A stretch of DNA of 33,991 nucleotides from contig JAHDWG010000012.1 in assembly GCA_023384495.1 (NCBI GenBank), positions 2,924-36,914 of the forward strand, written 5' to 3'. Source of the DNA: Caldilineaceae bacterium. GTDB taxonomy: Bacteria; Chloroflexota; Anaerolineae; Caldilineales; Caldilineaceae. This document shows, piece by piece, positions 8,895 through 29,684 of this stretch (within the stretch, counting starts at the first letter, position 1; each line of letters opens with the position of its first letter). The notes below the pieces were generated by a model, which saw only the letters and a list, made by a program, of their open reading frames with translations, ran no database searches and was not told the origin of the DNA. A program made the position numbers and the translations under genes.

Positions 8895-8938
8895 AAATTT
8901 CTCCGCGGTATTGGGGTTGTTCTGAATGCGCAATGTTG

Positions 8939-11786: not shown

Positions 11787-12347
11787 CCTACCTATATCAA
11801 CGAAACGACCCTGGGCGCTGTTCCGGGAAATTCCAGACCGTCGCCGATATTGGTGACTGGACAAATCATGGGAATTGTCTCATGATCACCCGATGAGAGA
11901 ACATCTTAACAGGAGCCGTCGTTGCCTCCCCTTACGCCGGCCAGAAAATGCAAGGTTCAAACCCCCGGCTGATCGCGAAAAGTCGCCTTAACGGCTGGAC
12001 GTTCAGCGCCCAAGATCGCCTTTCACTGTCAGATGCTGAATGGATTCGTTGCTATCAAGAAGTTCACGATTGCCCTGCCCCCCTGACGAAAGTAGGATTG
12101 ACGCATTGCCTGTTCGGCGGTATACTCAAGCGACAGCAGCATCCCCATTGCCCCTCATCGCCGCTTCTTCCCAGCAACGCTGTGTGCTTTTGGTGGGTTG
12201 GGTCTGCGAGCATTCACGTTGAGCGAGCCTTCTCCCCTGGTAATTGTATTCTCAGATCGGTTGCGCAATGGAGAAGCTCAATGACATCTGCTTCCAATCG
12301 ATTGATCCATATATCTGCATATCTGTTTGATGAGGAGACCTATCACA
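11787..12347. other. Divergent intergenic region between pbpC and the exported-protein cluster
   Basis: 561 bp without a supported gene. It carries the rightward promoter at 12098-12126 and its leader of about 215 nt. Near pbpC there is a small inverted repeat, ATCATG (11865-11870) and CATGAT (11881-11886), 10 bp apart, that could be an operator. No good leftward promoter was recognised. An open frame on the plus strand starting at 11948 runs out of frame into the next gene and has no protein-like features. Confidence 0.6.
12098..12126 (+). promoter_or_regulatory. Strong sigma-70-type promoter for the exported-protein cluster
   Basis: TTGACG (12098-12103), a 17-nt spacer and TATACT (12121-12126): five of six matches in both hexamers with ideal spacing. 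Transcription would start near 12133 and leave about 215 nt of leader before the ATG at 12348. It is the best promoter in the window and the only good one seen before the six plus-strand genes. Confidence 0.65.
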
Positions 12348-13475: not shown

Positions 13476-13493
13476 GCAAATGTGGTAACGTTT

Positions 13494-15827
13494 ATGGCTC
13501 GATACGTACAGCACGTCTCAAGGATGATTACGCCTCGGTTGGCGCTCGTGATCGCTGCGCTCGCCGCCGGTCTGTTGGCCGCGCGCGGCGGCCTGGCGCA
13601 GGAGTCGCCCAACTTCGCCTTGCGCCAGGCGCTGCTCAACAGCGGCGGCGGCGAGCGCCATTCGCCAAACCACCTGGTGCGCGATGGGCTTGGCCTGGCG
13701 GCGGCAGGGCGCGCGGCAAGCCCCACCTACATGGTGGTTGGCGGCTTTGGCGGCGGCGTCATGATGGTAGACCCGGGTGGCGACGAATTTGAGCCTGACG
13801 ACGACTGCGGTCTGGCCCGCACGCTGGAGGTGGATGCGCCCGCCCAAGTCCACAATTTTCACGCCGTCGGCGACCGTGATTGGATCCGCTTCACCGCCCA
13901 GGCGGGCAAAGGCTATCATATTGAAGTGGCCAACATTGGCGCAAACGCCAACGCGGTGGTGGGCCTTTATGACCAGTGTGACCGCCCGCCAGAGTCACAG
14001 GAGAGCAACGCATTTGGCCCCAGCGTGCGCATCACCTGGTTGGCCAGGCGGAGCGGCGACTATTTTATCGAATTACAGCAGTTTGACGCTGCCTTTGCCG
14101 GCGAGGGGACCGCGTACTCGGTGCGGGTGATGCTCGACAGAGAGCCGCCTTCGCCGCCACAAAACCCGCGCTGCACGGCGGTCAACGCCACGACATTGGG
14201 CCTACAGTGGAAGCGCAGCCCTGAACGCGACGTGCGCGGCTATCGGGTGAACTTCACGGGCATTCCTTCAGGGAGCGAAGATATTTTGGGCCCCGATACG
14301 GTCTATACTGAACTGGGTGGGCTAAACGCCGGCCAGACCTATCAATTTCGGGTGCTTGCGGTCGATCATACGGGCAACGAGAGCGAGCCGTCGGGCCAGG
14401 TCAGTTGCAAGGCTGAGGCGCCGCTGGACCTGTCTCGTCCGGTGGTGATCCTCAACCAGCCGGCCTTTGGCGGCGGCGTCTACACCACCACCGCCTACTC
14501 GATGACCTTTGCTGGGGTCGCCCTTGATGATGGGCAAAACCTGTTGCGAGCGCAGGTGCGCAATGCGACGCGCAATAAAGAGGGGTGGGACTATAGCCTG
14601 CGTGGGCGCGAAGGCGCGTTTCGCGTCCCCGATATCGGGCTTGCGATCGGCGACAACCAGATCCAGGTGCGAGTCTATGATGATGCCGGCAACGTGACAA
14701 CCGAGGAGCTTGCTGTGCGGCGTCTGGGGGAGGTGCAGGGTGGGGTGATCATCATGGCGGGTCACAACGAGACGTTCGGGCTGCAACGGAACATCTACAA
14801 TGCGGCGAACCGGGCGTATCGGATCTTCCGGGGTGCGGGGTTCACGGACGAGGCGATCCACTATCTATCGCCGGTGGCGCAGGATGCGACGGGGGATGGG
14901 GTATTCGACACGGATGGGCCATCGCGGCCGGCGGATCTGGAGGCGGCGGTGACGGAGTGGGCGCGGGGGCATGTGGGGCCGGGGAAGCCGCTCTACATCT
15001 ACCTGATCGACCACGGGTTTGCGGACAAGTTCTGTGCGGCGGGGTGCAGCGGGGGAGGTGCGTTCACGCCGGCGGAGCTGGACGGGTGGCTGCGGGTGCT
15101 GGAGGCGGCGACGGGAGTAGACCAGGTGACGATTGTGATCGAGGCGTGCCAGTCGGGGAGCTTCTTGGACCGTCACAACCAGGATGTGGCGAACAGCCTG
15201 TCGAAGGAAGGGCGGGTGGTGATCACATCGACGGGGCGAGCGAACAATGCGTATGCGTCGGCGGAGGGGGCGTACTTTTCGGATGCGTTCTTTTCGTGTC
15301 TGGCGGAGAGCAACAGCATGAAGGTGTGCTACGAGCAGGGGGTGTCGGCGGTGGGGGCGACGGGTGTAGACCAGACGCCGTGGCTGGACGACAACGGGGA
15401 TGGGGTGTCGAACGAGAACGACGGGGCGGAGGCGGACCTGCGGGTGGTGACGCGCTTCTTCCGTTCGGTGCGGCCGACGATCCGAGAGGTGAGCGTGGTG
15501 CGCAACGGGGCGAACGGGGTGTTGACGGCGATGGTGGAGGAGGGGGCCGAGGAGGTGGAACTGGTGTGGGCGACGGTCTACCCGCCGAGCTTCCGCGAGC
15601 CGGACACGGTGACGATCAACCTGAATGCGCCGACGGTGCGGCTGGAGCCGACGGGCGAGCCGGGGCGTTACGCCTTCAACTATCTCAACGGCTTCAGCGA
15701 GGAGGGCGACTATCGCATCGTCTTCTACGCCCAAGACCGGCTTGGCATCCACGGCGTCCCCCGCCGCGAAGGCGATTGGGGCCTTCCCAGTGACGGCGCC
15801 CTCTTTTTGCCGCTGATTCAGCGATGA
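13494..15827 (+). CDS. Secreted C13 (legumain-like) cysteine peptidase with PPC, Fn3 and Ig-like domains
   Basis: A 777-residue exported protein. After the signal peptide (cleavage near GGLAQE) and a short ESPNFALRQAL..GGG motif come a PPC-type domain (about 100-215; EPDDDC, DRDWIRF), an Fn3 domain (about 218-310), an Ig-like domain (about 315-410), the peptidase domain (about 413-655) and a beta domain. The clan CD dyad is visible: His507 in LIDHGF and Cys552 in EACQSGS, 45 residues apart, as in legumain-type enzymes. Paired cysteines (KFCAAGC) suit an oxidising exterior, and a calcium-type loop (DDNGDGVSNENDG) follows. The protein ends in FLPLIQR. The start is uncertain: GTG 13482, ATG 13494 and ATG 13524 are all possible. 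It lies 18 nt after the previous gene and 50 nt before the next, so co-transcription is likely. The catalytic part is an exact copy of that in the next gene. Confidence 0.9.
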   Translation: MARYVQHVSRMITPRLALVIAALAAGLLAARGGLAQESPNFALRQALLNSGGGERHSPNHLVRDGLGLAAAGRAASPTYMVVGGFGGGVMMVDPGGDEFEPDDDCGLARTLEVDAPAQVHNFHAVGDRDWIRFTAQAGKGYHIEVANIGANANAVVGLYDQCDRPPESQESNAFGPSVRITWLARRSGDYFIELQQFDAAFAGEGTAYSVRVMLDREPPSPPQNPRCTAVNATTLGLQWKRSPERDVRGYRVNFTGIPSGSEDILGPDTVYTELGGLNAGQTYQFRVLAVDHTGNESEPSGQVSCKAEAPLDLSRPVVILNQPAFGGGVYTTTAYSMTFAGVALDDGQNLLRAQVRNATRNKEGWDYSLRGREGAFRVPDIGLAIGDNQIQVRVYDDAGNVTTEELAVRRLGEVQGGVIIMAGHNETFGLQRNIYNAANRAYRIFRGAGFTDEAIHYLSPVAQDATGDGVFDTDGPSRPADLEAAVTEWARGHVGPGKPLYIYLIDHGFADKFCAAGCSGGGAFTPAELDGWLRVLEAATGVDQVTIVIEACQSGSFLDRHNQDVANSLSKEGRVVITSTGRANNAYASAEGAYFSDAFFSCLAESNSMKVCYEQGVSAVGATGVDQTPWLDDNGDGVSNENDGAEADLRVVTRFFRSVRPTIREVSVVRNGANGVLTAMVEEGAEEVELVWATVYPPSFREPDTVTINLNAPTVRLEPTGEPGRYAFNYLNGFSEEGDYRIVFYAQDRLGIHGVPRREGDWGLPSDGALFLPLIQR
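14715..15769 (+). repeat. 1055-bp perfect direct repeat, copy 1 (C13 cassette)
   Basis: This stretch matches 19886-20940 base for base at a constant offset of 5171 bp. It starts at the Val-Arg-Arg-Leu codons before the peptidase domain and stops at the Arg-Arg-Glu codons shortly before the tail. It covers the whole C13 domain, the calcium-type loop and the C-terminal beta domain. No terminal inverted repeats or transposase are present, so it is not an insertion sequence. Confidence 0.97.
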
Positions 15828-15877: not shown

Positions 15878-18800
15878 ATGAGCCGAATTCAAATCACATT
15901 GCTCTTTCTCTTCATCGTGGCGGGGGCGTGGGGCGCGGAGCCAGCCAAGAGCCAGGGTGACCCGTGCGCCGGTGTGACCGACGCGCCGGCTGCCGATTGC
16001 AATGCGCTGGTGGCCCTCTACAATGCCACCAATGGCCCCAACTGGACAAAGCGCACCAACTGGCTGGCCAACAACTTGGTCTGCTCGTGGCATGGGGTGA
16101 CGTGCGGCGGCGGGCGGGTGACGCAACTGCGGCTGATGGCGAACGGCCTGAGCGGGACCGTTCCCCCTGCGTTGGCCAATGCGCAGCTTTTGAACTGGAT
16201 CGAGCTGCAAAACAACCAACTGACCGGCCCAATTCCACCGGAGTTGGCGCAGCTCAGCGCGCTGACCGAGCTTGCGCTCTACCAAAACAGCATGACCGGT
16301 CCGATCCCGGCGCAACTGGGTGGCCTGAGCAACCTGAGCGCCCTGCGGCTGGGCAGCAACCAACTGACGGGGACAATCCCGCCAGAATTGGGCAACCTGA
16401 GCGAGCTAAAGGCGCTGGGCATCAACAGCAATCAGTTGACCGGCATAATCCCGCCGGAACTGGGCAGCCTCTCGAAACTTGAGCTGATCAATGCGCACGG
16501 CAATCAATTGACCGGCCCCATCCCCAGCACGTTTAACAATTTCCCAGAGATGTGGCGGCTCTATCTGGAGAACAATCAACTGAGCGGTGAACTGCCGAGC
16601 GGGCTGAGCAACCTGGCCAAACTACGCGTCTTTTCGATTCGTAACAACCGCCTGAGCGGCCCAATCCCTACGTCGTACACCAATCTGACGGCGTGGAACA
16701 ATGTGGATTTGGGTTACAACATGCTGACCGCGTCGGACAGCGCGCTGGTCAACTTTCTCAATGCCAAAGACCCTGATTGGGCGCAGACGCAGACAGTCGC
16801 GCCGACCGGTGTGCAGGCTACCCCGCAATCGGGCGCCAGCGTCAGCGTGACCTGGACGCCGATTCCCTACACCGGCGATGGGGGATACTATGAGGTGGGC
16901 TTCGCTGCCAGCGCCGATGGCCCCTTTGTCGTCCACGGAAGGACGGCCAACAAGAGCGCCAATAGCTACGTAGTCACCGGCCTTTCGGCGCAGACAACAT
17001 ATGATGTTGTTGTGCGGTCGTTTACGCCCGCCCACGGTGAACAGGTTAACGAGCTGCTCAGCGACTACAGCCGACCGGCGTCGGCGACGACCGGCGCGTT
17101 TAGCTGCGGTGACGTATCGCAACTCCCCGCCACGGAATGTGAGGCGCTGGTTGCCCTGTACAACGCCACCACTGGCCCCGCATGGACCAACCGGACGGGC
17201 TGGTTGCAGACCAGCACGCCCTGCTCGTGGCATGGCGTCACCTGTAGCGGCGGCCGCGTTACCGAACTCAATCTATCGAGCAACAACCTGAAAGGCAGCC
17301 TGCCGCCGCAGATTGGCAACTTCCCCATGCTCAACAACCTGGCTGTGCGCGCCAATCAGCTTTCGGGCTCGATCCCGGCGGAGATCGGTCAACTGACAGC
17401 GCTGACGCGTCTGACGCTCTCCGAGAACCAGTTGACCGGCGATATCCCCACCACGGTCGGCAACCTGGTCAACATGGAACAGTTCTGGCTGCATTACAAT
17501 CAACTGACCGGCCCCTTGCCGACCCAACTAGGCAACCTGACCAGGCTCAAGCGGTTTGGCGCCATCGACAACCGGTTGAGTGGAACCATTCCCACACAGT
17601 TGGGCAATCTCACCAACCTGACTGAACTTTATCTGAATCGGAACTTGTTCAGCGGCTCGATCCCACCTCAGATCGGCAACCTGACCAAGCTGACCGTGTT
17701 GCTCTTTGTCAACAACCAACTGAGTGGTGAGATACCCACGTCGTTCACCAACCTGACCCAGGTGACCAATCTGAACGTTGGTTACAACCGGCTCACTGCA
17801 TCGGACCCGGCATTGCTCAACTTTTTGGCCGCCAAACACCCGACCTGGCTTGACACCCAGACGCTGCCCCCCACCAATCTACAGGCAACCGCTCAATCCA
17901 GCTTCCAGATCCGCCTCTCTTGGACGCCGATCCTTTATACGGCTGATGGCGGTTACTATCAGGTCAGTATGGCGACTGCGCCTGGTGGGCCATACGCCGT
18001 TCAGGGGGTGACCGCTGACAAAACGGTCGATGGTTTTACGGTCAGTGGCCTGTCGCCGGCCACCACCTACTATTTTGTCGTGCGCACGTTTACGCCAGCA
18101 GCCAATGTGCAAAAGAACAATCTGTGGAGCAACTACAGCGTCGAAGCCTCAGCCACCACGCAACAAGAGACAACGCCCGTTGCCCCCACCATCAATTCGG
18201 CGCCACTGACAACCGCGCTGCGCGGTCAGCCCTATGCCTATAGCGTAGTCGCCTCGGGCAGCGCACCGTTGGCCTTTGCGCTGGTCAAGGGGCCGGACGG
18301 CATGAGTGTAGACCCAACCACGGGGTTGCTGTCGTGGACGCCATCCGATGTCGGTTCGTTTGCCGTGACGGTGCGCGTATCGAACGCGGTTGGCTCTGCG
18401 GAACAGGCGTTCAGCGTGGTGGTCAACGACGCGCCTCAGATTACATCGACGCCGGTGGTGGCCGGCCTGGTGGCGCAGCCCTATGCGTATGATGTAGACG
18501 CAACCGGCGCGCCTGCGCCTGCCTTTTCGCTGAGCCTTGCGCCCACCGGCATGACCATCAACGCAACCAGCGGGCTGATCAACTGGACGCCCGCCACCGA
18601 AGGTGTCTACACAGTCACGGTCAAAGCCGCCAACCCGGTAGGGGTAGACGAGCAAACCTTCGAGATCAATGTGAGTGAAGTCACAGAGATGGTGGCGCCC
18701 GTGATCCTGTCAGAGCCGCCGCTTGCCGCCGATGTGGGCAAACGCTACGAGTATCTCGTCAGCGCATCCGGCGTCCCGGCGCCAGTCTTCAGCCTGGTCG

Positions 18801-20986
18801 ACGCGCCCGCCGGCATGACCATCAACAGCACCACAGGCGCCGTCGCCTGGGAGCCAACGGACGCCGGGAGTTTTGCGGTCACCATCCAGGTGTCCAATAG
18901 CGCCGGTGACGCGCAACAGAGTTTCACCGTGGTGGTGAGTGGGGTTGCCGAGGGCGATCTGTATGAAGATGACGACGCGTGCGAGAGGGCTACGACGATC
19001 CTCACCAATGGCGCCAAGCAGCAGCGCAATTTTCACGCACTGGGCGATGTCGACTGGATTCGCTTTGAGGCGCAGGCGTTCCGCACCTATATTATCGAGG
19101 TGATTAACCAGGGGTCGCTGGCCGACGCCGTCGTCGAGATCCACGATGAGTGCGACGAAACGCCATCGAGCCTGGCCAACAATGCCTTTGGCCGCAGCGT
19201 GCGCCTGGAGTGGGATGCACGGCGCAGCGGTGAATACTTCCTGCGCCTCAGCCAGTTTGATGGCGCCTCGTTTGGCGCCGAAGAGACCCGCTACGAGGTG
19301 CGCGTCACCGTGGATACGACACCGCCCCAGGCGCCGCAAAGCCCACGCTGCGCCCCCCTCAACGACCGCACCCTGGCCGTGCAGTGGAAGAAAAGCCCTG
19401 AGCGCGATGTGCGCGGCTATCGTGTGGCACTGACCGGCGTGCCGTCGGTCAATGAGGATGTGCCCGGCATCGCCACAACCTATGTGGAGATCACTCAACT
19501 GCGACCGAACCAGCGCTACGATGTGACCGTGAGTGCGGTGGACTTTTCGGGCAACGAGAGCCTGCCGTCGGGTGTGGTGCGCTGCCTGGTGGCCCCCCCA
19601 CCCGACACCACGCCGCCCGCGCTCACCCTCTCTAAGCCGACGGGCGGCGGCATCTACACCACCACTGCCTATTCGCTCACCTTTACCGGCGTCGCGCAGG
19701 ATGATGTCAATCTCGCCCGCGTCCAAGTGCGTAACGCCACACGCAACAAAGAAGGGTGGGATTGGAGCCTGAGCGGCCTCAGCGCCCCGTTCCGCGTGTC
19801 GGACATTGGGCTTGCCGTAGGGGACAACCGCGTCGAGGTAATGGTCTTCGATGATGCGGGCAACATGACCAAAGAGCAAATGGTCGTGCGGCGTCTGGGG
19901 GAGGTGCAGGGTGGGGTGATCATCATGGCGGGTCACAACGAGACGTTCGGGCTGCAACGGAACATCTACAATGCGGCGAACCGGGCGTATCGGATCTTCC
20001 GGGGTGCGGGGTTCACGGACGAGGCGATCCACTATCTATCGCCGGTGGCGCAGGATGCGACGGGGGATGGGGTATTCGACACGGATGGGCCATCGCGGCC
20101 GGCGGATCTGGAGGCGGCGGTGACGGAGTGGGCGCGGGGGCATGTGGGGCCGGGGAAGCCGCTCTACATCTACCTGATCGACCACGGGTTTGCGGACAAG
20201 TTCTGTGCGGCGGGGTGCAGCGGGGGAGGTGCGTTCACGCCGGCGGAGCTGGACGGGTGGCTGCGGGTGCTGGAGGCGGCGACGGGAGTAGACCAGGTGA
20301 CGATTGTGATCGAGGCGTGCCAGTCGGGGAGCTTCTTGGACCGTCACAACCAGGATGTGGCGAACAGCCTGTCGAAGGAAGGGCGGGTGGTGATCACATC
20401 GACGGGGCGAGCGAACAATGCGTATGCGTCGGCGGAGGGGGCGTACTTTTCGGATGCGTTCTTTTCGTGTCTGGCGGAGAGCAACAGCATGAAGGTGTGC
20501 TACGAGCAGGGGGTGTCGGCGGTGGGGGCGACGGGTGTAGACCAGACGCCGTGGCTGGACGACAACGGGGATGGGGTGTCGAACGAGAACGACGGGGCGG
20601 AGGCGGACCTGCGGGTGGTGACGCGCTTCTTCCGTTCGGTGCGGCCGACGATCCGAGAGGTGAGCGTGGTGCGCAACGGGGCGAACGGGGTGTTGACGGC
20701 GATGGTGGAGGAGGGGGCCGAGGAGGTGGAACTGGTGTGGGCGACGGTCTACCCGCCGAGCTTCCGCGAGCCGGACACGGTGACGATCAACCTGAATGCG
20801 CCGACGGTGCGGCTGGAGCCGACGGGCGAGCCGGGGCGTTACGCCTTCAACTATCTCAACGGCTTCAGCGAGGAGGGCGACTATCGCATCGTCTTCTACG
20901 CCCAAGACCGGCTTGGCATCCACGGCGTCCCCCGCCGCGAGGGGGAACTGGATTCTCTGTATTTGCCGCTTATCAGCAAGAATTGA
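15878..20986 (+). CDS. Secreted LRR / Fn3 / Ig-like C13 (legumain-like) cysteine peptidase
   Basis: A 1702-residue exported mosaic. The signal peptide ends near AEPAKSQG. Two modules follow, each with a plant-type LRR cap (CSWHGVTC), repeats of the N.L.G.IP..LGNL kind (nine in the first, eight in the second) and an Fn3 domain: residues about 27-405 and 407-763. Three Ig-like (He_PIG type) domains span 764-1024. Then come PPC (1024-1146), Fn3 (1146-1241), Ig-like (1241-1337), the C13 peptidase with His1436 (LIDHGF) and Cys1481 (EACQSGS), a calcium-type loop, a beta domain, and the tail YLPLISKN. The ATG at 15878 has AGGG 4 nt upstream. LRR and Fn3 parts usually bind protein or glycan ligands, so a ligand-directed or ligand-controlled extracellular protease is inferred. 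From about residue 1337 onward the codon use changes abruptly, together with the start of the exact repeat shared with the previous gene. Confidence 0.93.
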   Translation: MSRIQITLLFLFIVAGAWGAEPAKSQGDPCAGVTDAPAADCNALVALYNATNGPNWTKRTNWLANNLVCSWHGVTCGGGRVTQLRLMANGLSGTVPPALANAQLLNWIELQNNQLTGPIPPELAQLSALTELALYQNSMTGPIPAQLGGLSNLSALRLGSNQLTGTIPPELGNLSELKALGINSNQLTGIIPPELGSLSKLELINAHGNQLTGPIPSTFNNFPEMWRLYLENNQLSGELPSGLSNLAKLRVFSIRNNRLSGPIPTSYTNLTAWNNVDLGYNMLTASDSALVNFLNAKDPDWAQTQTVAPTGVQATPQSGASVSVTWTPIPYTGDGGYYEVGFAASADGPFVVHGRTANKSANSYVVTGLSAQTTYDVVVRSFTPAHGEQVNELLSDYSRPASATTGAFSCGDVSQLPATECEALVALYNATTGPAWTNRTGWLQTSTPCSWHGVTCSGGRVTELNLSSNNLKGSLPPQIGNFPMLNNLAVRANQLSGSIPAEIGQLTALTRLTLSENQLTGDIPTTVGNLVNMEQFWLHYNQLTGPLPTQLGNLTRLKRFGAIDNRLSGTIPTQLGNLTNLTELYLNRNLFSGSIPPQIGNLTKLTVLLFVNNQLSGEIPTSFTNLTQVTNLNVGYNRLTASDPALLNFLAAKHPTWLDTQTLPPTNLQATAQSSFQIRLSWTPILYTADGGYYQVSMATAPGGPYAVQGVTADKTVDGFTVSGLSPATTYYFVVRTFTPAANVQKNNLWSNYSVEASATTQQETTPVAPTINSAPLTTALRGQPYAYSVVASGSAPLAFALVKGPDGMSVDPTTGLLSWTPSDVGSFAVTVRVSNAVGSAEQAFSVVVNDAPQITSTPVVAGLVAQPYAYDVDATGAPAPAFSLSLAPTGMTINATSGLINWTPATEGVYTVTVKAANPVGVDEQTFEINVSEVTEMVAPVILSEPPLAADVGKRYEYLVSASGVPAPVFSLVDAPAGMTINSTTGAVAWEPTDAGSFAVTIQVSNSAGDAQQSFTVVVSGVAEGDLYEDDDACERATTILTNGAKQQRNFHALGDVDWIRFEAQAFRTYIIEVINQGSLADAVVEIHDECDETPSSLANNAFGRSVRLEWDARRSGEYFLRLSQFDGASFGAEETRYEVRVTVDTTPPQAPQSPRCAPLNDRTLAVQWKKSPERDVRGYRVALTGVPSVNEDVPGIATTYVEITQLRPNQRYDVTVSAVDFSGNESLPSGVVRCLVAPPPDTTPPALTLSKPTGGGIYTTTAYSLTFTGVAQDDVNLARVQVRNATRNKEGWDWSLSGLSAPFRVSDIGLAVGDNRVEVMVFDDAGNMTKEQMVVRRLGEVQGGVIIMAGHNETFGLQRNIYNAANRAYRIFRGAGFTDEAIHYLSPVAQDATGDGVFDTDGPSRPADLEAAVTEWARGHVGPGKPLYIYLIDHGFADKFCAAGCSGGGAFTPAELDGWLRVLEAATGVDQVTIVIEACQSGSFLDRHNQDVANSLSKEGRVVITSTGRANNAYASAEGAYFSDAFFSCLAESNSMKVCYEQGVSAVGATGVDQTPWLDDNGDGVSNENDGAEADLRVVTRFFRSVRPTIREVSVVRNGANGVLTAMVEEGAEEVELVWATVYPPSFREPDTVTINLNAPTVRLEPTGEPGRYAFNYLNGFSEEGDYRIVFYAQDRLGIHGVPRREGELDSLYLPLISKN
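15956..18165 (+). repeat. Intragenic tandem duplication of the LRR-Fn3 module
   Basis: The two LRR caps are 1140 bp apart (CTGCTCGTGGCATGG at 16081 and 17221). The ends of the two Fn3 domains are only about 1065 bp apart, because the first module has one extra repeat of about 24 residues. Protein similarity is high but the DNA has diverged, so this duplication is much older than the perfect C13 repeat. Confidence 0.85.
19886..20940 (+). repeat. 1055-bp perfect direct repeat, copy 2 (C13 cassette)
   Basis: Identical to 14715-15769. On the left the match ends where GTC (here) faces GCT (copy 1). On the right it ends where GAGGGGGAA faces GAAGGCGAT. The flanking Ig-like domains of the two genes are clearly diverged, so identity begins and stops sharply, as expected for gene conversion or a recent cassette replacement. 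Confidence 0.97.
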
Positions 20987-21219: not shown

Positions 21220-24200
21220 ATGGTTGATGTAAAACCCAATGTCATAAAAAAACCGCGTCCTTTTGGCTATGCAATCCTGTTGGTGTTGGTTGGATTGATC
21301 TTACTCTCTGCCGCACTGGCAACCTTGTGGATGCAGAGTGTCATCCCACAGCGGGCGTTTGCCAGTCTGCGCTCGCCCGGCGCGGCGAGCGACTTTGCCG
21401 GTCGTGTCCAAGTGCAGGACATTGGAACCGCCTCGCCGTCTCTGAAGAGCGATCGTCTGCTAGTGGAGATGGCGGACGTAGGCGCGCCGCCCAGCGGACG
21501 CAGCTTCTACGGCTATATACTTGGTTCAAACGGCCAGGGCCGGCCGTTTGGCCCCCTGGCTGTGGCAGGCGGCGCCGTCAATGCAAACGCCGATTTCCCC
21601 GGTCGCAATCTGGTTGGCGCTTATAGCCAGGTTTATATCATGCAAGAGTCACGCGTCTTTAGTGCAACGCTGCCCACCGCCGCGTTGAGCCATCTCCGCA
21701 CCGCGGTGGATCGCGCCAGCGACACGCCGGGGCAGGTGGGCTACAGCGTCGGTCTGGTGAAACAGGCCGCCATTTTGCACCAGCACGCCGGTTTTGCAAA
21801 AGCCGCCGCCGATGCCGGCAATTTGAATGGGGCCAGGCTCCATACGGAACATGTACTCAACATCCTCTACGGCGAGAGTGATTCCCGATATGGCGACCAC
21901 GACGAGGATGGGTTTGCGGAAAATCCTGGCGATGGGTACGGGCTGCTCCATTATAGCAGCAGCCTGTCGCAGACCTTGCAGTTGGCCGCCGCCGCTGCGG
22001 ATGCTACGCCCAATGTGCAGACGCGCGTGGCGCAGGTGCAGACAACATTGGGCAATATTGGCTCAAGCAGCGAGGCTGGGCTATGGTCACCGGTGCTGAT
22101 CGCCGCCGCCGCAGAACTGCTGCTGGCCGGTTCGGCGACGGCCGCGCAGGCGCCGGCCACCCAGATGGTGGCGGCGACGAATCGCATCTACAATGGCACC
22201 GATTTCAACGACAACGGCGAGATTGAGCCGGTGGAAAACGAAGGCGGCGCCATCGTTGCCCACCGTTATACGCAACGAGCCGCGGACTATCTGCCCCCCA
22301 GCAGCAGCGGGGTCAGCGGCAGCGTCCAACATCGCGATGCCGACAACAACCGCAAGAGCGACCGACTCACCGTGGCGCTGACCGGCTTGCCCACCCCCGC
22401 CGCAGGTGAGCAGTACTATGTCTATCTGGTCAACGCCGACAACGACTGGCTCTGGCTGGGTGGGCTGGCCGGCTCGGGAGGAACGCTTGAGGGAACCATC
22501 AACCGCACGGGCGTCAATCTGATCGCCGGCTATCAACGCCTGTATGTGAGTGTCGGCGCGCTCTACGCCGATGGCGATCTGCCGCCTGACGCCTTGAACC
22601 ACCTGCGCATGGCGCTGCACCGGGTGGTCGATACGCCAGACGAGACCGGCTTTGCTGTGGGGCTGATGAGGCAGGCGCAACTTGTTTACGCCCATGCCGG
22701 CTTTGCCAAAGCCGCGGCAGATGGCAACAATCTGCCCGATGCCAAGCTCCACGTTGAGCATGTGCTCAACATCCTCTACGGTGAGAGTGATCCCCGTTTT
22801 GGCGACCACGACGAGGACGGCTTCCCCGAAAACCCAGGCGATGGCTATGGGCTGTTGCGCTACAGCCAGAGCCTCTCGCAGACGTTGCAACAGGCGGCGG
22901 ACAGTGCGGACGCCACCGACAACATCCGCACACGCGTGGCCGAAGTGCAGACCACGCTGGGCAATATCGGCGATCCGTCCACCAATAGCGCGTGGGTCGA
23001 CACGCTGATCGCGCGCGCCGAAGATATCCTCAACGCCACTACCGCCGCCGGCGCGCAAACACCCGCCAATCAACTGGTGACGGCCGCCGACCGCCTGCTC
23101 AACGGCACCGACCTCAACGACAATGGCGTCATCGACCCGCTGCCCAATGAGGGCGGGGCCAGGACGGCCTATCGACACACACAATATGCGGTCGACTACA
23201 CACTTGAATTGCGGGCCCCGTCATCGCCGCTGACGCCCACGCCGCTGACGGGGACGCCATCGGTTACCCCGACATCTACACCCACCGGCGGACCGTCGCC
23301 CGATGGCGATGCCTATGAAGCGGATGATAGCTGTGAGCAGGCCAAACCGATTGCCGTGGACGGCAGCGAGATGCAGATGCGCACCTTCCACGCCGAGGGC
23401 GATGTAGACTGGGTCAAGTTCACGGCCCAACTCAACAAAACCTATGTCGTCGAAGTGAGGAATGTGGGACCAAAGGCCGACGCTGTCCTCTATCTGCACG
23501 ATGTGTGCGCCGCGCCCCCCAGCGCGTTCGAGGGCAAGGCGTTTGGTTCGACGGTGCGCCTGATCTGGAACTCGACCAAAGCGGGTGATTACTTCCTCCA
23601 GTTGCAACAGTTTGACCCTAGTTTCTTTGGCCCTGACACGCACTATCACCTTACCGTGACTGAGGATGTGACCCCACCGACGACACCGATCAACCTGCGC
23701 TGTGTTGCGATCGACGCCACCACGCTGGGGGTGCAATGGCAAAAAAGCCCCGAAACCGATGTCGTACGCTATCGGGTGACTTTCCGTAACCAGACAGCCA
23801 CCAGCAGCGGCAATCGCGATGTGGCGGGCGCCGACCAGACCTATGTCGAAATCGACAACCTGGCGGCAGGCGAACTTTTCGACTTGCAAGTGGTGGCGAT
23901 TGACTTCTCGGGCAATGAAAGTGGCGCATCGGCGCCGGTTCAGTGTCGAGCAGCCGCCGTCGCCGATCCGACCCAGCCTGTGCTGACGCTCCAGCAACCG
24001 ACCGCATCGGGCGTCTTTACGACAACGGCCGCCCAGGTTACCTTTACGGGCTTCGCACAGGACGCCGGCGGCAACCTTAGCCAGGTGCATGTCAAAAATC
24101 TCACCAACCAGTCCGAGGGCCGTGACTTTAGCCTGAGCGGGGGCAACACGTCGTTCCGGGTTGAGAATCTGAGCCTCAACATCGGCGATAACGACATCCT

Positions 24201-25356
24201 GATGACCGTGATCGACAGCGCCGGGAACACGGGTCAGAAGTCGCAACGCATCCATCGGCTCAGCGGCAGAACGGGCGCGGTCATCATCGTCGCTGGGCAC
24301 AACGAGACCTTTGGCCTGCAGACCAATATCTACAATGCGGCCAACCGCGCCTATCGCATCTTCAAAACCGCCGGCTTCAGCGATGACAACATCTTTTACA
24401 TTTCACCCACAGGGCAGGACGCCGACGGCAATGGCAGCAACGATGTCGACGCGCCGGCAAGCCCAGACGCGGTGCAGCAGGCGATCACGGGTTGGGCGAA
24501 AGAGAATGGGCGCGTCGGCCCCGGCAAGCCGCTCTTCCTCTATATGATCGACCACGGCTTTGCCGATAAGTTCTGTGTCAATGGATGCAGCGCGAGTCAG
24601 GTGGTGACGCCCGAAGAGCTCAACGGTTGGCTCAAAAATCTCGAAGACGCCACCGGTCTCAACGAAGTGAATATCGTCATCGAGGCGTGCCAGTCGGGCA
24701 GCTTCATCGACCGGCCCAATGGCGCTGTGTTGAATGGCCTGGGTGGCGCCGGCCGCGTGGTTATCACCTCCACCGACCGCGCCAACAATGCCTATGCATC
24801 GGCGCAGGGCGCCTTCTTCTCCGACGCCTTCTTTTCGTGCGTGGCGGACAGCAACAACCTCAAGGTCTGTTTTGAGCAGGCCAGCGCAGCGGTGGCGGCC
24901 ACCGGCGTCAAGCAATTGCCCTGGATGGATGACAACGGCGATGGCGTCTTTAATAGCGGCGATGGCGCCGTGGCGCAAAACCGCCATGTCACCGCCTTCT
25001 TCAGCTCGATCCGGCCTGAGATCCGCAACGTGGAGGTGATCAGAGACGGCGCCAATGGACAACTGGTCGCAACGTTGGATGAGGGCGCAGAGGCCATCGG
25101 CCTGGTCTGGGCAACCATCTTTCCCCCTTCGTTTGAAGAACCCGACGGCGTGACGCTCAATCTCAACGCCCCCACGGTTCGGCTCGACCCCGACCCGAAC
25201 ACCCCCGGACGCTATCTGTTCAACTATGTCAACGGCTTTACCGAGGACGGCGACTACCGGATCGTCTTTTACGCCCAAGACCGGCTGGGCATCCACGCCG
25301 TGCCGCGGCGCGAGGGGCAATTGGATACCCTCTTCTTGCCCATCCTGTTCCGGTAG
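21220..25356 (+). CDS. Membrane-anchored C13 (legumain-like) cysteine peptidase with duplicated N-terminal domain
   Basis: A 1378-residue protein. One hydrophobic segment at about residues 15-38 follows a Lys/Arg-rich start and is probably an uncleaved anchor or signal. Residues about 61-366 and 367-665 are two copies of an unnamed domain. Each starts with a beta part resembling anti-sigma RskA-type folds (SDRLLVEM, SDRLTVAL), then has helices with AGFAKAAAD, EHVLNILYGESD and an EF-hand-like loop DHDEDGF.ENPGDGYGLL. A Pro/Thr linker (668-697) leads to PPC (697-817), Fn3 (817-913), Ig-like (913-1015), and the C13 domain with His1112 (MIDHGF) and Cys1157 (EACQSGS). A calcium-type loop, beta domain and tail FLPILFR follow. 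The protein closely resembles the two preceding peptidases over the shared part but uses ordinary host codons throughout. The ATG has AGGA 7 nt upstream. The 233-bp gap before it may hold its own control signals. Confidence 0.92.
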   Translation: MVDVKPNVIKKPRPFGYAILLVLVGLILLSAALATLWMQSVIPQRAFASLRSPGAASDFAGRVQVQDIGTASPSLKSDRLLVEMADVGAPPSGRSFYGYILGSNGQGRPFGPLAVAGGAVNANADFPGRNLVGAYSQVYIMQESRVFSATLPTAALSHLRTAVDRASDTPGQVGYSVGLVKQAAILHQHAGFAKAAADAGNLNGARLHTEHVLNILYGESDSRYGDHDEDGFAENPGDGYGLLHYSSSLSQTLQLAAAAADATPNVQTRVAQVQTTLGNIGSSSEAGLWSPVLIAAAAELLLAGSATAAQAPATQMVAATNRIYNGTDFNDNGEIEPVENEGGAIVAHRYTQRAADYLPPSSSGVSGSVQHRDADNNRKSDRLTVALTGLPTPAAGEQYYVYLVNADNDWLWLGGLAGSGGTLEGTINRTGVNLIAGYQRLYVSVGALYADGDLPPDALNHLRMALHRVVDTPDETGFAVGLMRQAQLVYAHAGFAKAAADGNNLPDAKLHVEHVLNILYGESDPRFGDHDEDGFPENPGDGYGLLRYSQSLSQTLQQAADSADATDNIRTRVAEVQTTLGNIGDPSTNSAWVDTLIARAEDILNATTAAGAQTPANQLVTAADRLLNGTDLNDNGVIDPLPNEGGARTAYRHTQYAVDYTLELRAPSSPLTPTPLTGTPSVTPTSTPTGGPSPDGDAYEADDSCEQAKPIAVDGSEMQMRTFHAEGDVDWVKFTAQLNKTYVVEVRNVGPKADAVLYLHDVCAAPPSAFEGKAFGSTVRLIWNSTKAGDYFLQLQQFDPSFFGPDTHYHLTVTEDVTPPTTPINLRCVAIDATTLGVQWQKSPETDVVRYRVTFRNQTATSSGNRDVAGADQTYVEIDNLAAGELFDLQVVAIDFSGNESGASAPVQCRAAAVADPTQPVLTLQQPTASGVFTTTAAQVTFTGFAQDAGGNLSQVHVKNLTNQSEGRDFSLSGGNTSFRVENLSLNIGDNDILMTVIDSAGNTGQKSQRIHRLSGRTGAVIIVAGHNETFGLQTNIYNAANRAYRIFKTAGFSDDNIFYISPTGQDADGNGSNDVDAPASPDAVQQAITGWAKENGRVGPGKPLFLYMIDHGFADKFCVNGCSASQVVTPEELNGWLKNLEDATGLNEVNIVIEACQSGSFIDRPNGAVLNGLGGAGRVVITSTDRANNAYASAQGAFFSDAFFSCVADSNNLKVCFEQASAAVAATGVKQLPWMDDNGDGVFNSGDGAVAQNRHVTAFFSSIRPEIRNVEVIRDGANGQLVATLDEGAEAIGLVWATIFPPSFEEPDGVTLNLNAPTVRLDPDPNTPGRYLFNYVNGFTEDGDYRIVFYAQDRLGIHAVPRREGQLDTLFLPILFR
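21400..23215 (+). repeat. Tandem duplication of an uncharacterised domain of about 300 residues
   Basis: Copy 1 runs about 21400-22317 and copy 2 about 22318-23215. The EHVLNILYGESD segments are 909 bp apart. Both copies keep the Asp-rich loop, the NPGDGYGLL motif, the TRVAQVQTTLGNIG/TRVAEVQTTLGNIG segment and the closing NGTD.NDNG.I.P..NEGGA motif. The second copy diverges mainly in the beta part. Confidence 0.85.
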
Positions 25357-25502: not shown

Positions 25503-28500
25503 ATGAATGCTTCAGATACAAACCTACGTCGACGCCGCTTGCTGGTCACGAGCGCGCCCCTAGTGATGGCTGTGGCGCTCCTCTGCGCCATGACCTTCCC
25601 CATGCCGCAGCCCGGCCGCGCCGCCGCGGCTGCCGGGCCGGACCTGACGGTGGAGGTCAGTCTGTTGCCCACCACGCCCGTGGCCGGCCAGGAGGTGACG
25701 ATCCGCGTGGTCGCCCGCAACATCGGGACGAGCAACGCCGCGGAGCGGGTTGAGGTGCATCTCTATGTGGACCCGCCCGACCGCCCGCCCACGCCGACGA
25801 CGCTTGGCTTTCCGATTATCAGCATCCCAGGATTGGCGGCCGGCGACACTGCGCAAGGGGAACGAACGCACACCTTCACCACCAATGATTGCAACCACGT
25901 CATCTACGCCTGGATCGACCGCGACGGCGGTATCGCCGAAAGCGATGAGACCAACAACCTGGTTGCGCTGCCGGTTTGCGTGGGCGTGGTCTGCGAGCCG
26001 GATGGCTACGAAGAGGACAATTCCTGTAGCGCCGCCGGCCTGCTCTCCGAGAATGCCAGCCAGGCGCGCAGCTTCTGCCGCGCCGACGACCACACGCTCG
26101 CCGATGAGGATTGGGTCAAGTTCACCGCATTTGCCGGTGTTACCTATACCCTGGCCGCCACCAATCAGGGCGCCAACGCCGCCCCCCAATTCGAACTGTA
26201 TGGCGCATGTGGCGCAGCGCCGCTAACCGATGGCGATGATCAGGTGGCCTGGCGCGCAACCGGCGACGGTGTGCTCTATGCCCGGCTGCGGCGCGCCGAC
26301 GGCGTCAGCGGGCCGCTCACCGCCTACAGCCTGACGCTGAGCAGCGCCACCGGCGTCACCGATGACTACGAGCCGGACAACCGTTGCGCCGACGCGCGTG
26401 ACATCCCCACCAATGGGGTGCGCCAGACGCGCCTCTTCCAGGCGCCGGGCGATGAGGATTGGGTCAAGTTTACCGTCAGCGCCGGCGAAAGCTTTATCAT
26501 CATCGCCGACAACACTGCGCCGGGCGTCAACCCGTTGGTGACCGTCTTTTCTTCGTGTAGCCAAGTGGATGCGAACGCCAGCTTGGGGCCATCCGCCGCC
26601 CAGGTGGCCCAAAGCAGCACGACCGACGCCGTCTACTTTGCCAGAATTCGCAACCAGAATCCGGCCAACTTTGGCGCAGCCGCCCGCTACGACCTCGCCG
26701 TCACCGCGGCGGCCTGTGCGCCTGACGGCGAGGAGGGGGACAACGACCGCACTCAGGCGCGCATGGTCACGGTGGGCGCAGCCGCCCGTACACACAATTT
26801 CTGCCCGGCCAGCGATGAGGATTGGGTCAAGTTCAGCGCCAAAAAGGGCAAGGTCTATGTGCTCCAGACCACCAATCTGGCCTTTGCTTCCGATACGGTG
26901 CTTCACCTCTATGATACCGATGGAACGACCGAATTGGCGCAAAACGATGATTACGGCTACACGAGCGGTTCGCGGATTGTTTGGGAGGCGCCCGCCGATG
27001 GACTCTACTTTGCCAAAGTGCGCCACGCCAATCCCGTCGCCAGTGGGCCGAACACCCAGTATGACCTCGCCGTGCAGGAGGGCGTCTGCGCGCCGGATTC
27101 GTTTGAGGGCGGCGCCGGCAACAATGGCCCTGGGGATGCGCCGCTGGTCGCCACCAATGGCGTCAGCCAGACACACACATTCTGCGCCGATGCGCTCAAC
27201 CCCCTGCTCGGTGACCAGGATTGGGTCGCCTTCAACGCGGTGGCGGGCGGGAACTACCAGATTGTCACCACTGGTCTTGGCGCCAACAGCGACACGGTGC
27301 TCGAACTCTACGACCGGGACGGGGCAAGGCAATTGCTGCATAACGACGATGTGGGCGCCGGGCGCGGCGCCATGTTGACCTTTACCCCCACCCTCTCTGG
27401 CGCGTATTTTGTACGGGTCACCCAGTTCAACCCCAACCTGGTAAGCCGCGACGCCGACTATCAGTTGCAAATTTTTGGTACAGAGCCGCCCACGCCAACG
27501 CCCACCCCGACGTTGACGCCGACGCCCAGCCCGACCCCCTCGCCCACCGCAACCCCGCAGCCCTCGACGGTCAAGACGCTGATCGTGGTCAACCGCGAGC
27601 GGATCGAAACCTTGCATGGCGCCGGCCCCGCCGATACGCTCTTTCGCAAGTTGAGCCAGTTCGCCAATGACAGCGACGTCGAGGGCGTTGTGGTGGAGGT
27701 GGAGCGCGACCCCGCGGTGGCCGCGGCCTATGCCGCATGGACAGCCGATGCGACGACGCTCGCCGACCACGAACTCGCCAACAACACGGTCGCCGCCATC
27801 CGCAACCGGGTGATGGGCTTTCTCGCCAGCGCCCCCCAGGCCCGACATGTGGTGATCATCGGCGATGACCGCGTCGTCCCCTTTCGCCGCGTGCTGGATC
27901 GGGTGGCGCCCACGGGCAAGCAGGCCGCCTCGGTGGAGTCTGTTTATGCGCAAGAGCTGACCGAGGAGGGAACCGTCTACGCGGCGCTGGCCGCCAACAT
28001 GATCCTGACCGATGATTACCTCGTTGACCGCGAGCCGAGCCAGTGGCAAGACCGCCAGCAAAACGAGTATGAACTGTTTGTGCCAGACTATGCTGTGGGC
28101 CGGCTCGTCGAGGAGCCCGATGAGATCATCGCGGTGCTCGACAATTTTCTGGCCGGCGACAAGATGATCGGCGCGGCCAATGCGCTGGTGACGGGGTATG
28201 ACTTTGTACAGGACAGCGCCGACCTGATCAAGACGCTCTTCCGCAACGACGCCATCCCCACCGACGCCGAACTGATCGGCGCAAGCTGGACGGGTGACGC
28301 CCTGCGCGCCAAATACCTGACCGCCGCGCCTCGCTATGATCTCTACTCAGTCAATGGTCACTCCACTCACCTGGCCGCGGGCGCGCCCGACGGCAGCGAC
28401 ATGACCGCCGCCCAGATTTTGGCCGCCACCACCGACCTGCGCGGGGTGTTGGTCTTTAGCCTGGGCTGCCATAGCGGCCTCAATGAGCCGGGCGTGCTCG

Positions 28501-29684
28501 ATCTGCCGCAGGCGTTCTTGCGCAAACAGGCGCACTATGTGGGGAAGACCGGCTTTGGCTGGGGCGGTGGCGGCGTTGTCTTTAGCGAGGCGCTGATGCG
28601 CAACTTTGCGCGCGAACTGCTGCGCGACACCGAAGCCGCCATCGGGCCGGCGTTGATGGACGCCAAGCGCAAGTATGTGAGCCAGGCGCGGCGCTTTGAC
28701 GCGTTTGACGCCAAGGTGCTCATGCAGATGACGCTCTACGGCCTGCCCATGGTCAGGATGCAGTCGGGTGGCGCGCTGACCGACGATGACCCCTTCCCCA
28801 GCGCCCAGCCGCAGTTTACGCCGCCCACCTCGTTTGGCAGCGTGGCCGAGGGCGCGGCGGGCTATCGGTTGCCCAGCTCGTTTGGCGCATTTGGCGCGCA
28901 GTCGAGCGATGCCGGCGCCACATTTGAGCTGGACGGCAATGTGGCGTTTGGGGTCGATGAGCCGCTCCAGCCGCTCTACTACACCGACGTATCGGCCCCC
29001 GCGGTGGGGCCTCTGCGCGGCGCGGTCTTTTTGGGCGGCGTCTACAGCGACACGGTCAACGTCGACCCTGTGATTGGCGCGCCGCTCAACGAATATGTCA
29101 CCGACCGCAGCGAGCCTGCGTTCTACGCCGACGAATTTTATCCGGCGGCGCCCTTTACCATCCGCAGCAGCGATACGATCTCGGGCGCGGCCGACACGCT
29201 GGTGATGAACCTGGGGCAATTCCAGAGCGGCCCCGATGTTGCGGCAGCCGCGGCGGGCCGGGGCGTCGTCCGCCTTTACGATCAAATGTCGTTTGGCGTC
29301 TATTACTCCACCAGCCCCGACCGCAACGCGGCCAACATCGAAACGATCGACGGCGTGCTCGACCCGGATGCCGGCATGGGGCGGATCAAGGTGGACGCCA
29401 ACGACGCATCGGGCGTACGGCGGGTGGTGGTGGCCTTTACCGAGGGGCAAGGGCAATGGTTGAGCAAGGACTTGACCTTTGACGAGCAGGCGCAAAAGTG
29501 GACCGGCGTGATCACGGGCACGGTCAATACGCGCTTTTTCGTCCAGGTCGTGGACAACGCAGGCAATGTGGCGGTCAACGAAAACAAGGGGCGCTACTAT
29601 CGCCTGGCCGAGCCAGTTCCGCTGGCCGAGGGCCGCCCGTTGATGGTGGAGCGCCGCGTCTATTTGCCGTTGGTCAATCGGTAG
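25503..29684 (+). CDS. Secreted gingipain-like (C25-type) peptidase with CARDB and four PPC domains
   Basis: A 1393-residue exported protein. The signal region (about 1-43) has a twin-Arg-rich start (RRRRLLV). A CARDB domain spans 45-160 (DRDGGIAESDETNN). Four PPC domains lie at about 162-280, 282-400, 402-522 and 524-660, each with a DEDWVKF or DQDWVAF core. A Pro/Thr linker (660-690) precedes a C25-type caspase fold (690-1090): VVIIGDDRVVPF, DYAVGRLVEEPDE, the candidate catalytic His953 in VNGHSTH and Cys989 in LGCHSGLNEP. His956 is a second possibility. The C-terminal 300 residues are beta-rich, ending in a domain with VVDNAGNVAVNE, and the protein stops with YLPLVNR. Gingipains cleave after Arg or Lys; the specificity here cannot be read from the sequence. 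The Cys pocket GCHSG resembles the C13 form ACQSG. The ATG at 25503 has GGATGG upstream. A 146-bp gap separates it from the previous gene. Confidence 0.88.
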   Translation: MNASDTNLRRRRLLVTSAPLVMAVALLCAMTFPMPQPGRAAAAAGPDLTVEVSLLPTTPVAGQEVTIRVVARNIGTSNAAERVEVHLYVDPPDRPPTPTTLGFPIISIPGLAAGDTAQGERTHTFTTNDCNHVIYAWIDRDGGIAESDETNNLVALPVCVGVVCEPDGYEEDNSCSAAGLLSENASQARSFCRADDHTLADEDWVKFTAFAGVTYTLAATNQGANAAPQFELYGACGAAPLTDGDDQVAWRATGDGVLYARLRRADGVSGPLTAYSLTLSSATGVTDDYEPDNRCADARDIPTNGVRQTRLFQAPGDEDWVKFTVSAGESFIIIADNTAPGVNPLVTVFSSCSQVDANASLGPSAAQVAQSSTTDAVYFARIRNQNPANFGAAARYDLAVTAAACAPDGEEGDNDRTQARMVTVGAAARTHNFCPASDEDWVKFSAKKGKVYVLQTTNLAFASDTVLHLYDTDGTTELAQNDDYGYTSGSRIVWEAPADGLYFAKVRHANPVASGPNTQYDLAVQEGVCAPDSFEGGAGNNGPGDAPLVATNGVSQTHTFCADALNPLLGDQDWVAFNAVAGGNYQIVTTGLGANSDTVLELYDRDGARQLLHNDDVGAGRGAMLTFTPTLSGAYFVRVTQFNPNLVSRDADYQLQIFGTEPPTPTPTPTLTPTPSPTPSPTATPQPSTVKTLIVVNRERIETLHGAGPADTLFRKLSQFANDSDVEGVVVEVERDPAVAAAYAAWTADATTLADHELANNTVAAIRNRVMGFLASAPQARHVVIIGDDRVVPFRRVLDRVAPTGKQAASVESVYAQELTEEGTVYAALAANMILTDDYLVDREPSQWQDRQQNEYELFVPDYAVGRLVEEPDEIIAVLDNFLAGDKMIGAANALVTGYDFVQDSADLIKTLFRNDAIPTDAELIGASWTGDALRAKYLTAAPRYDLYSVNGHSTHLAAGAPDGSDMTAAQILAATTDLRGVLVFSLGCHSGLNEPGVLDLPQAFLRKQAHYVGKTGFGWGGGGVVFSEALMRNFARELLRDTEAAIGPALMDAKRKYVSQARRFDAFDAKVLMQMTLYGLPMVRMQSGGALTDDDPFPSAQPQFTPPTSFGSVAEGAAGYRLPSSFGAFGAQSSDAGATFELDGNVAFGVDEPLQPLYYTDVSAPAVGPLRGAVFLGGVYSDTVNVDPVIGAPLNEYVTDRSEPAFYADEFYPAAPFTIRSSDTISGAADTLVMNLGQFQSGPDVAAAAAGRGVVRLYDQMSFGVYYSTSPDRNAANIETIDGVLDPDAGMGRIKVDANDASGVRRVVVAFTEGQGQWLSKDLTFDEQAQKWTGVITGTVNTRFFVQVVDNAGNVAVNENKGRYYRLAEPVPLAEGRPLMVERRVYLPLVNR

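Follow-up and report, generated by a model that had tools for sequence, protein, structure and literature searches.

Two neighbouring genes of a Caldilineaceae bacterium share a cassette for a C13 protease domain whose core has G at almost every synonymous third base. The core was either fused with a native tail or came to adjoin one when a native paralogue converted the tail; the resulting unit was copied from one gene to the other. What is new is that two lineages show this recoding in one and the same domain. Our results point to an unrecognised process acting on the C13 domain rather than to one foreign gene.

A repeated cassette with G-ending codons

The window, by which we mean the whole analysed stretch of 33,991 nt, lies on contig C176 of a 7.6 Mb draft genome (764 contigs; contamination estimated at 8.2%). 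Three adjacent genes encode large, apparently secreted products, each ending in a C13 protease domain, and are followed by a gene for a secreted protein with CARDB and PPC domains (Table 1). Four neighbouring secreted proteins (15780–15827, 20940–20986, 25320–25356 and 29650–29684) and most C13 relatives close with a short motif in which hydrophobic-[FY]-L-P precedes a stretch of about four residues, the C terminus itself being basic; this motif may serve as a Chloroflexota signal for sorting or anchoring. Beside the protease cluster, a bacterial alpha-2-macroglobulin gene adjoins a gene for a penicillin-binding transglycosylase/transpeptidase (window positions 2976–8933 and 9033–11864, minus strand).

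Table 1. Features of the C13 cluster, in window coordinates
Feature	Position	Strand	Description	Basis
Gene 1	13482..15827	+	781 aa: fn3, Ig-like domain, C-terminal C13 (legumain-like) domain	Pfam fn3 and Peptidase_C13 matches
Gene 2	15878..20986	+	1702 aa: leucine-rich repeats, He_PIG, fn3, C-terminal C13 domain	Pfam
Gene 3 (third C13 paralogue)	21220..25356	+	1378 aa, ordinary codons; control without G tract	Pfam
Neighbour gene	25503..29684	+	1393-aa secreted protein with CARDB and PPC domains	Pfam
Exact repeat, copy 1	14715..15769	+	1055 bp, in gene 1	
Exact repeat, copy 2	19886..20940	+	1055 bp, in gene 2	
G-coded tract, copy 1	14715..15665	+	four-fold third bases G 86%, C 4%	change-point fit and counts
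G-coded tract, copy 2	19886..20836	+		change-point fit
Host-coded tail within exact repeat	15666..15769	+	protein nearest third paralogue	codons and residue identity

The edges of the G-coded tract were obtained by fitting two boundaries (change points) to the four-fold third bases and checked against shuffles. The abrupt codon switch within the repeated cassette, described in an initial annotation of the sequence, is borne out and is even stronger than stated there: the log-likelihood ratio is 63.9 for gene 1, compared with at most 9.1 in 30 shuffles, and 57.4 for gene 2. About 320 codons long, the tract spans most of the legumain-like domain. Its four-fold third bases are 160 G, 10 A, 8 T and 7 C, compared with about 37% G and 45% C outside it in the same two genes; in the other genes of the window the fractions are 0.29–0.40 for G and 0.31–0.52 for C. 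The C13 domain of gene 3 (G 0.32, C 0.57) gives a ratio of 5.3, inside the shuffle range.

The codon counts agree with what had been read from the sequence by eye. Alanine is encoded by 36 GCG and a single GCC, at 15546, and glycine by 27 GGG, five GGT, two GGA and one GGC, at 15654 (the annotation had placed the return of GGC at about 15651). Upstream of the tract in gene 1, GGC and GCC are indeed common (alanine: GCG 19, GCC 19, GCT 6, GCA 4; glycine: GGC 33, GGG 10, GGT 4). Among two-fold codons, NNR has moved to G (0.91) and NNY still has 75% C. Since the NNY codons keep their C, the pattern is one of G wherever G is synonymous, and not a loss of C. The amino-acid composition is shifted only slightly.

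As host background we took 690 kb from 84 stretches of the genome in windows of 80 codons. The median four-fold G fraction was 0.32, and values above 0.71 occurred only in the two tract copies. Hence the situation named in the annotation as speaking against an unusual stretch, many native genes with the same G-ending pattern, was not found in this sample, nor was any further G-coded tract in the 0.69 Mb covered. In a host gene of 4972 aa, an Ig-like repeat contains a patch of some 60 codons (L091:4644–4823, G000:C270) with a four-fold G of 0.78; this patch was rejected as a second host tract because it is short and shallow. Searching for runs of NNG codons proved unspecific as a tract detector, owing to many matches from first-position G. 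In many ordinary C13 domains of several families, G-ending codons are commoner (0.5–0.57) at aligned codons 288–312 than elsewhere, probably due to the Val/Leu/Pro content there.

The left edge of the tract is the first base of the exact repeat. Genes 1 and 2 are about 67% identical just before it, 100% identical throughout the repeat and diverged again thereafter: windows of 90 nt over the 630 nt upstream give 47–76%, the sequence after the repeat 53%, and the proteins are 58% identical over the 260 residues upstream. Identity of the tract is thus far above that of its flanks, as is expected of gene conversion, and 1055 identical bp between genes that are about 60% identical elsewhere were copied by gene conversion or segmental replacement. 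Within the repeat, residues 1–317 (core) are 65% identical to the third paralogue and 63% to other family members, whereas residues 318–352 (tail) are 86% identical to that paralogue, the next best value being 66%. With the boundary set at the codon switch rather than fitted on its own, this shift of relationship holds. In the last 104 bp, glycine and alanine codons are GGC and GCC only. With different codons and different closest relatives for core and tail, the cassette is a mosaic, which supports the proposal that it is a hybrid, host-like at its end, that was subsequently duplicated. As the final 104 bp of the repeat have host codons, G tract and conversion unit coincide at the left edge only. 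The third paralogue has ordinary codons, as had been said; it does not encode nearly the same protein, however, the protein identity over the domain being 67%.

The C13 domain, its relatives and the search for a donor

The domain is a predicted legumain-like C13 protease by fold, with a conserved His-Cys dyad. Its Pfam Peptidase_C13 match scores 24.4 bits (cut-off 22.8), and the AlphaFold2 model (mean pLDDT 82) has a caspase-like fold for which the top Foldseek matches are legumains (E 6.7e-10). The catalytic residues lie in D130-H131-G132 and E174-A175-C176, invariant in 13 of 13 aligned members (alignment A2). Proteolysis after Asn or Asp is a trait of peptidase family C13. According to the model, the tract would start at residue 32, within the strand (25–34) that ends the Ig-like domain and just ahead of the first caspase-like strand (41–46), and its right edge in the host would fall inside a C-terminal beta domain, off any fold boundary.

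The closest domain-bearing relatives are Caldilineaceae MAGs, one match (G018:C3) being the Caldilineaceae record JAHBVF010000011.1. Some ten genomes of the host family, as well as certain other families of the class, have C13 domains at 55–63% identity, nearly all with ordinary codons; the exception is G245 (JAKOVD01, JPNG_maxbin.037), from a family other than that of the host.

In the initial annotation the core was called foreign-looking, and a C13 phylogeny and a donor search had been suggested as checks. Neither supports a foreign origin. The core protein falls inside the Caldilineaceae clade (support 100/100), on a long branch whose placement within the clade the tree does not resolve (0.50). 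A search of about 1,100 genomes, most of them from the same phylum, gave no G-coded or closer donor; a pattern scan of 84,980 species gave no G-coded donor, and protein searches of plasmids, phages, viral contigs (IMG/VR) and GTDB contigs gave none either. Beyond G245, which is ordinary elsewhere and no sister of the core, no G-coded homologue of the core was found. Thus, of the features expected of a recent horizontal transfer, a composition unlike the genome is present, but the protein does not group with a distant lineage and a donor with the same codon usage was absent from the searched collections. A literature search for single-domain G-ending recoding in bacteria likewise remained negative. 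No genome is known to us in which GGG dominates among the glycine codons and four-fold boxes are almost devoid of C.

Homogenisation of the domain is not restricted to the window. Tandem paralogues in two other Caldilineaceae genomes, G018 and G030 (loci L175 and L177), are 85% and 86% identical in the domain at the protein level, compared with 50% and 48% in the adjoining 260 residues upstream, whereas pairs from different genomes reach 54–63% in the domain and 42–53% upstream. In the tree, adjacent paralogues of one genome cluster together in several cases, a recurrence within genomes that runs against the species tree. Concerted evolution of the C13 domain therefore extends beyond the window. 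The homogenised pairs of G018 and G030 are not G-coded.

A second G-coded C13 domain

The codons of a 1382-codon gene in G245 are ordinary as far as the C13 domain, which is G-coded (L150:9067–10131; G 0.85 vs 0.45, log-likelihood ratio 45.5). The left edge of this tract lies 15 nt (at most five codons) from the position homologous to 14715, and this C13 gene also has a CARDB/PPC gene as a neighbour, here directly upstream. Overall codon usage in G245 is ordinary (G 0.34, C 0.43); a few milder G-rich stretches occur as well, the strongest in likely real genes reaching 0.77–0.80 over 80 codons in the 0.55 Mb sampled, so the tract stands out less from its own genome than that in the window does. 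G245 also has a second, truncated copy of the G-coded domain, 97.4% identical over 777 bp and fused to a different N terminus. A 341-aa frame in this genome (L151:9240–10010, G245:C170) consists of a signal/transmembrane segment, a Pro-Thr linker and the second half of the G-coded C13 domain, in which the catalytic His part is absent and the Cys part present.

In a tree of 46 rows the G-coded sequences fall into two clades divided by starred branches, so that two changes are needed. The G-coded group was named before the test trees were seen; forcing it into one clade, with the G-coded columns alone, cost 38 log-likelihood units (p-AU 0.0018). The residual codons differ as well: those not ending in G tend to end in A or T in the host and in C in G245 (Fisher p 1.4e-4). 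Both results together indicate that G-coding arose at least twice in the C13 domain, and the existence of a second G-coded C13 domain in another family makes a single donor lineage behind the core unlikely; separate unsampled donors are possible.

Possible origins and relation to known systems

We tentatively favour a reading in which the C13 module is exchanged by recombination and gene conversion while a bias towards G on the coding strand acts only within it, and give this reading rather less than an even chance. The comparisons show that a Caldilineaceae-type core with almost all-G synonymous sites has been joined to a native tail and that the two together passed from one gene to the other, either through gene conversion or through replacement of a segment. 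The domain would be the exchange unit, recombination repeatedly beginning or ending near its edge because the upstream sequence is too diverged. A long-lasting coding-strand G bias inside the unit would turn nearly every synonymous third base into G and leave NNY codons untouched, with the protein kept by purifying selection; its source may be the exchange itself, through strand-specific mismatch correction or repair synthesis, or local mutation. This bias is inferred and was not seen acting. In favour we count the sharp edges, of which the left one is the repeat edge, the lack of a similar tract in the host's 0.69 Mb, the separate origin, near-same left edge and duplicated domain in G245, and the homogenisation in G018 and G030; against it stand the host-coded tail of the repeat, the homogenised pairs without G-coding and the number of independent cases known, which is two. 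Moreover, a mutational bias of this strength would be expected to show at codon positions 1 and 2 as well. There, G rises slightly (z 3.1 and 1.4 in the host, 0.9 and 1.7 in G245), and so small a leak argues against a purely mutational bias. The broader claim, that a strand-specific process tied to paralogue exchange drives nearly all synonymous third bases to G in a recombining bacterial domain module, independently in at least two lineages, we consider on the unlikely side.

It is possible, if rather doubtful, that a foreign core, horizontally transferred from an unsampled lineage with G-ending codons, took the place of most of a native C13 domain before a copy passed between genes 1 and 2. 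The sharp codon edges, the different relation of core and tail to the third paralogue and the long branch of the core would fit such an event, but the protein is of the host family's own type, the searches yielded no donor, no genome with such usage is known to us, and G245, with its other clade and other residual codons, would require two donors.

Selection for G-ending codons in the domain, e.g. for slowing or pacing translation during protease folding or export, appears improbable. The modelled start of the tract just before the caspase-like fold, the similar beginning of both cases and the small leak into amino-acid composition are compatible with it, but other C13 domains of the clade lack the pattern, the right edge in the host is predicted to match no fold boundary, and predicted RNA folding of the tract equals that of host-coded versions (−56.3 vs −56.7 ± 1.8). 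On the same folding energies, avoidance of mRNA structure was rejected as a cause.

Very improbable is an assembly or binning artefact, with both copies filled from one foreign or consensus sequence: the fragmented and partly contaminated draft, which like its relatives probably stems from a metagenome, and the difficulty of perfect repeats above 1 kb for short reads would allow it, but in both copies the frames are intact and the flanks are distinct, in frame and typical of the host, and the phenomenon is also seen in a separate assembly, JAKOVD01, whose copies differ at 20 of 777 sites.

A sharp codon switch within a gene is usually taken as proof of foreign origin. Here such a switch arose at least twice in one domain, in genomes that are otherwise ordinary and in proteins native to each host's clade. 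If a local process rewrites synonymous sites without a donor, calls of horizontal transfer based on codons would be undermined; alternatively, unseen lineages exist with a codon usage not known to us in any genome.

With intragenic mosaicism by horizontal transfer our case shares the sharp switch of codon usage and closest relative within one gene; it differs in the native-type protein, the repeated origin of the codon state and the lack of a donor in our searches. Conversion-linked base bias has been proposed as a mimic of selection. GC-biased gene conversion is such a bias, but G and C should then rise together, whereas here G gains over C as well as over A and T, on one strand, and C falls to 4% at four-fold sites, a pattern that a GC bias does not produce. 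Compared with solved legumains, to which the domain is similar in its Pfam match, fold and the His in DHG and Cys in EAC of family C13 (PF01650), sequence identity is only about 16%, and the domain is attached to fn3, Ig-like or LRR modules in a secreted bacterial protein. Conserved rare-codon clusters (PMC5438181) are also genome-unusual and tied to a domain; the present tract has about 320 codons, is absent from most family members and is aimed at a single base. Gene conversion is known to make prokaryotic paralogues evolve in concert (PMC6053082), and conversion tracts are mostly contiguous, as in tuf genes (PMC5485169). The identical tract, abrupt edges, neighbouring paralogues and homogenised domain in related genomes agree well with these reports; the difference is that here the codons of the converted unit are unlike both its flanks and the genome.
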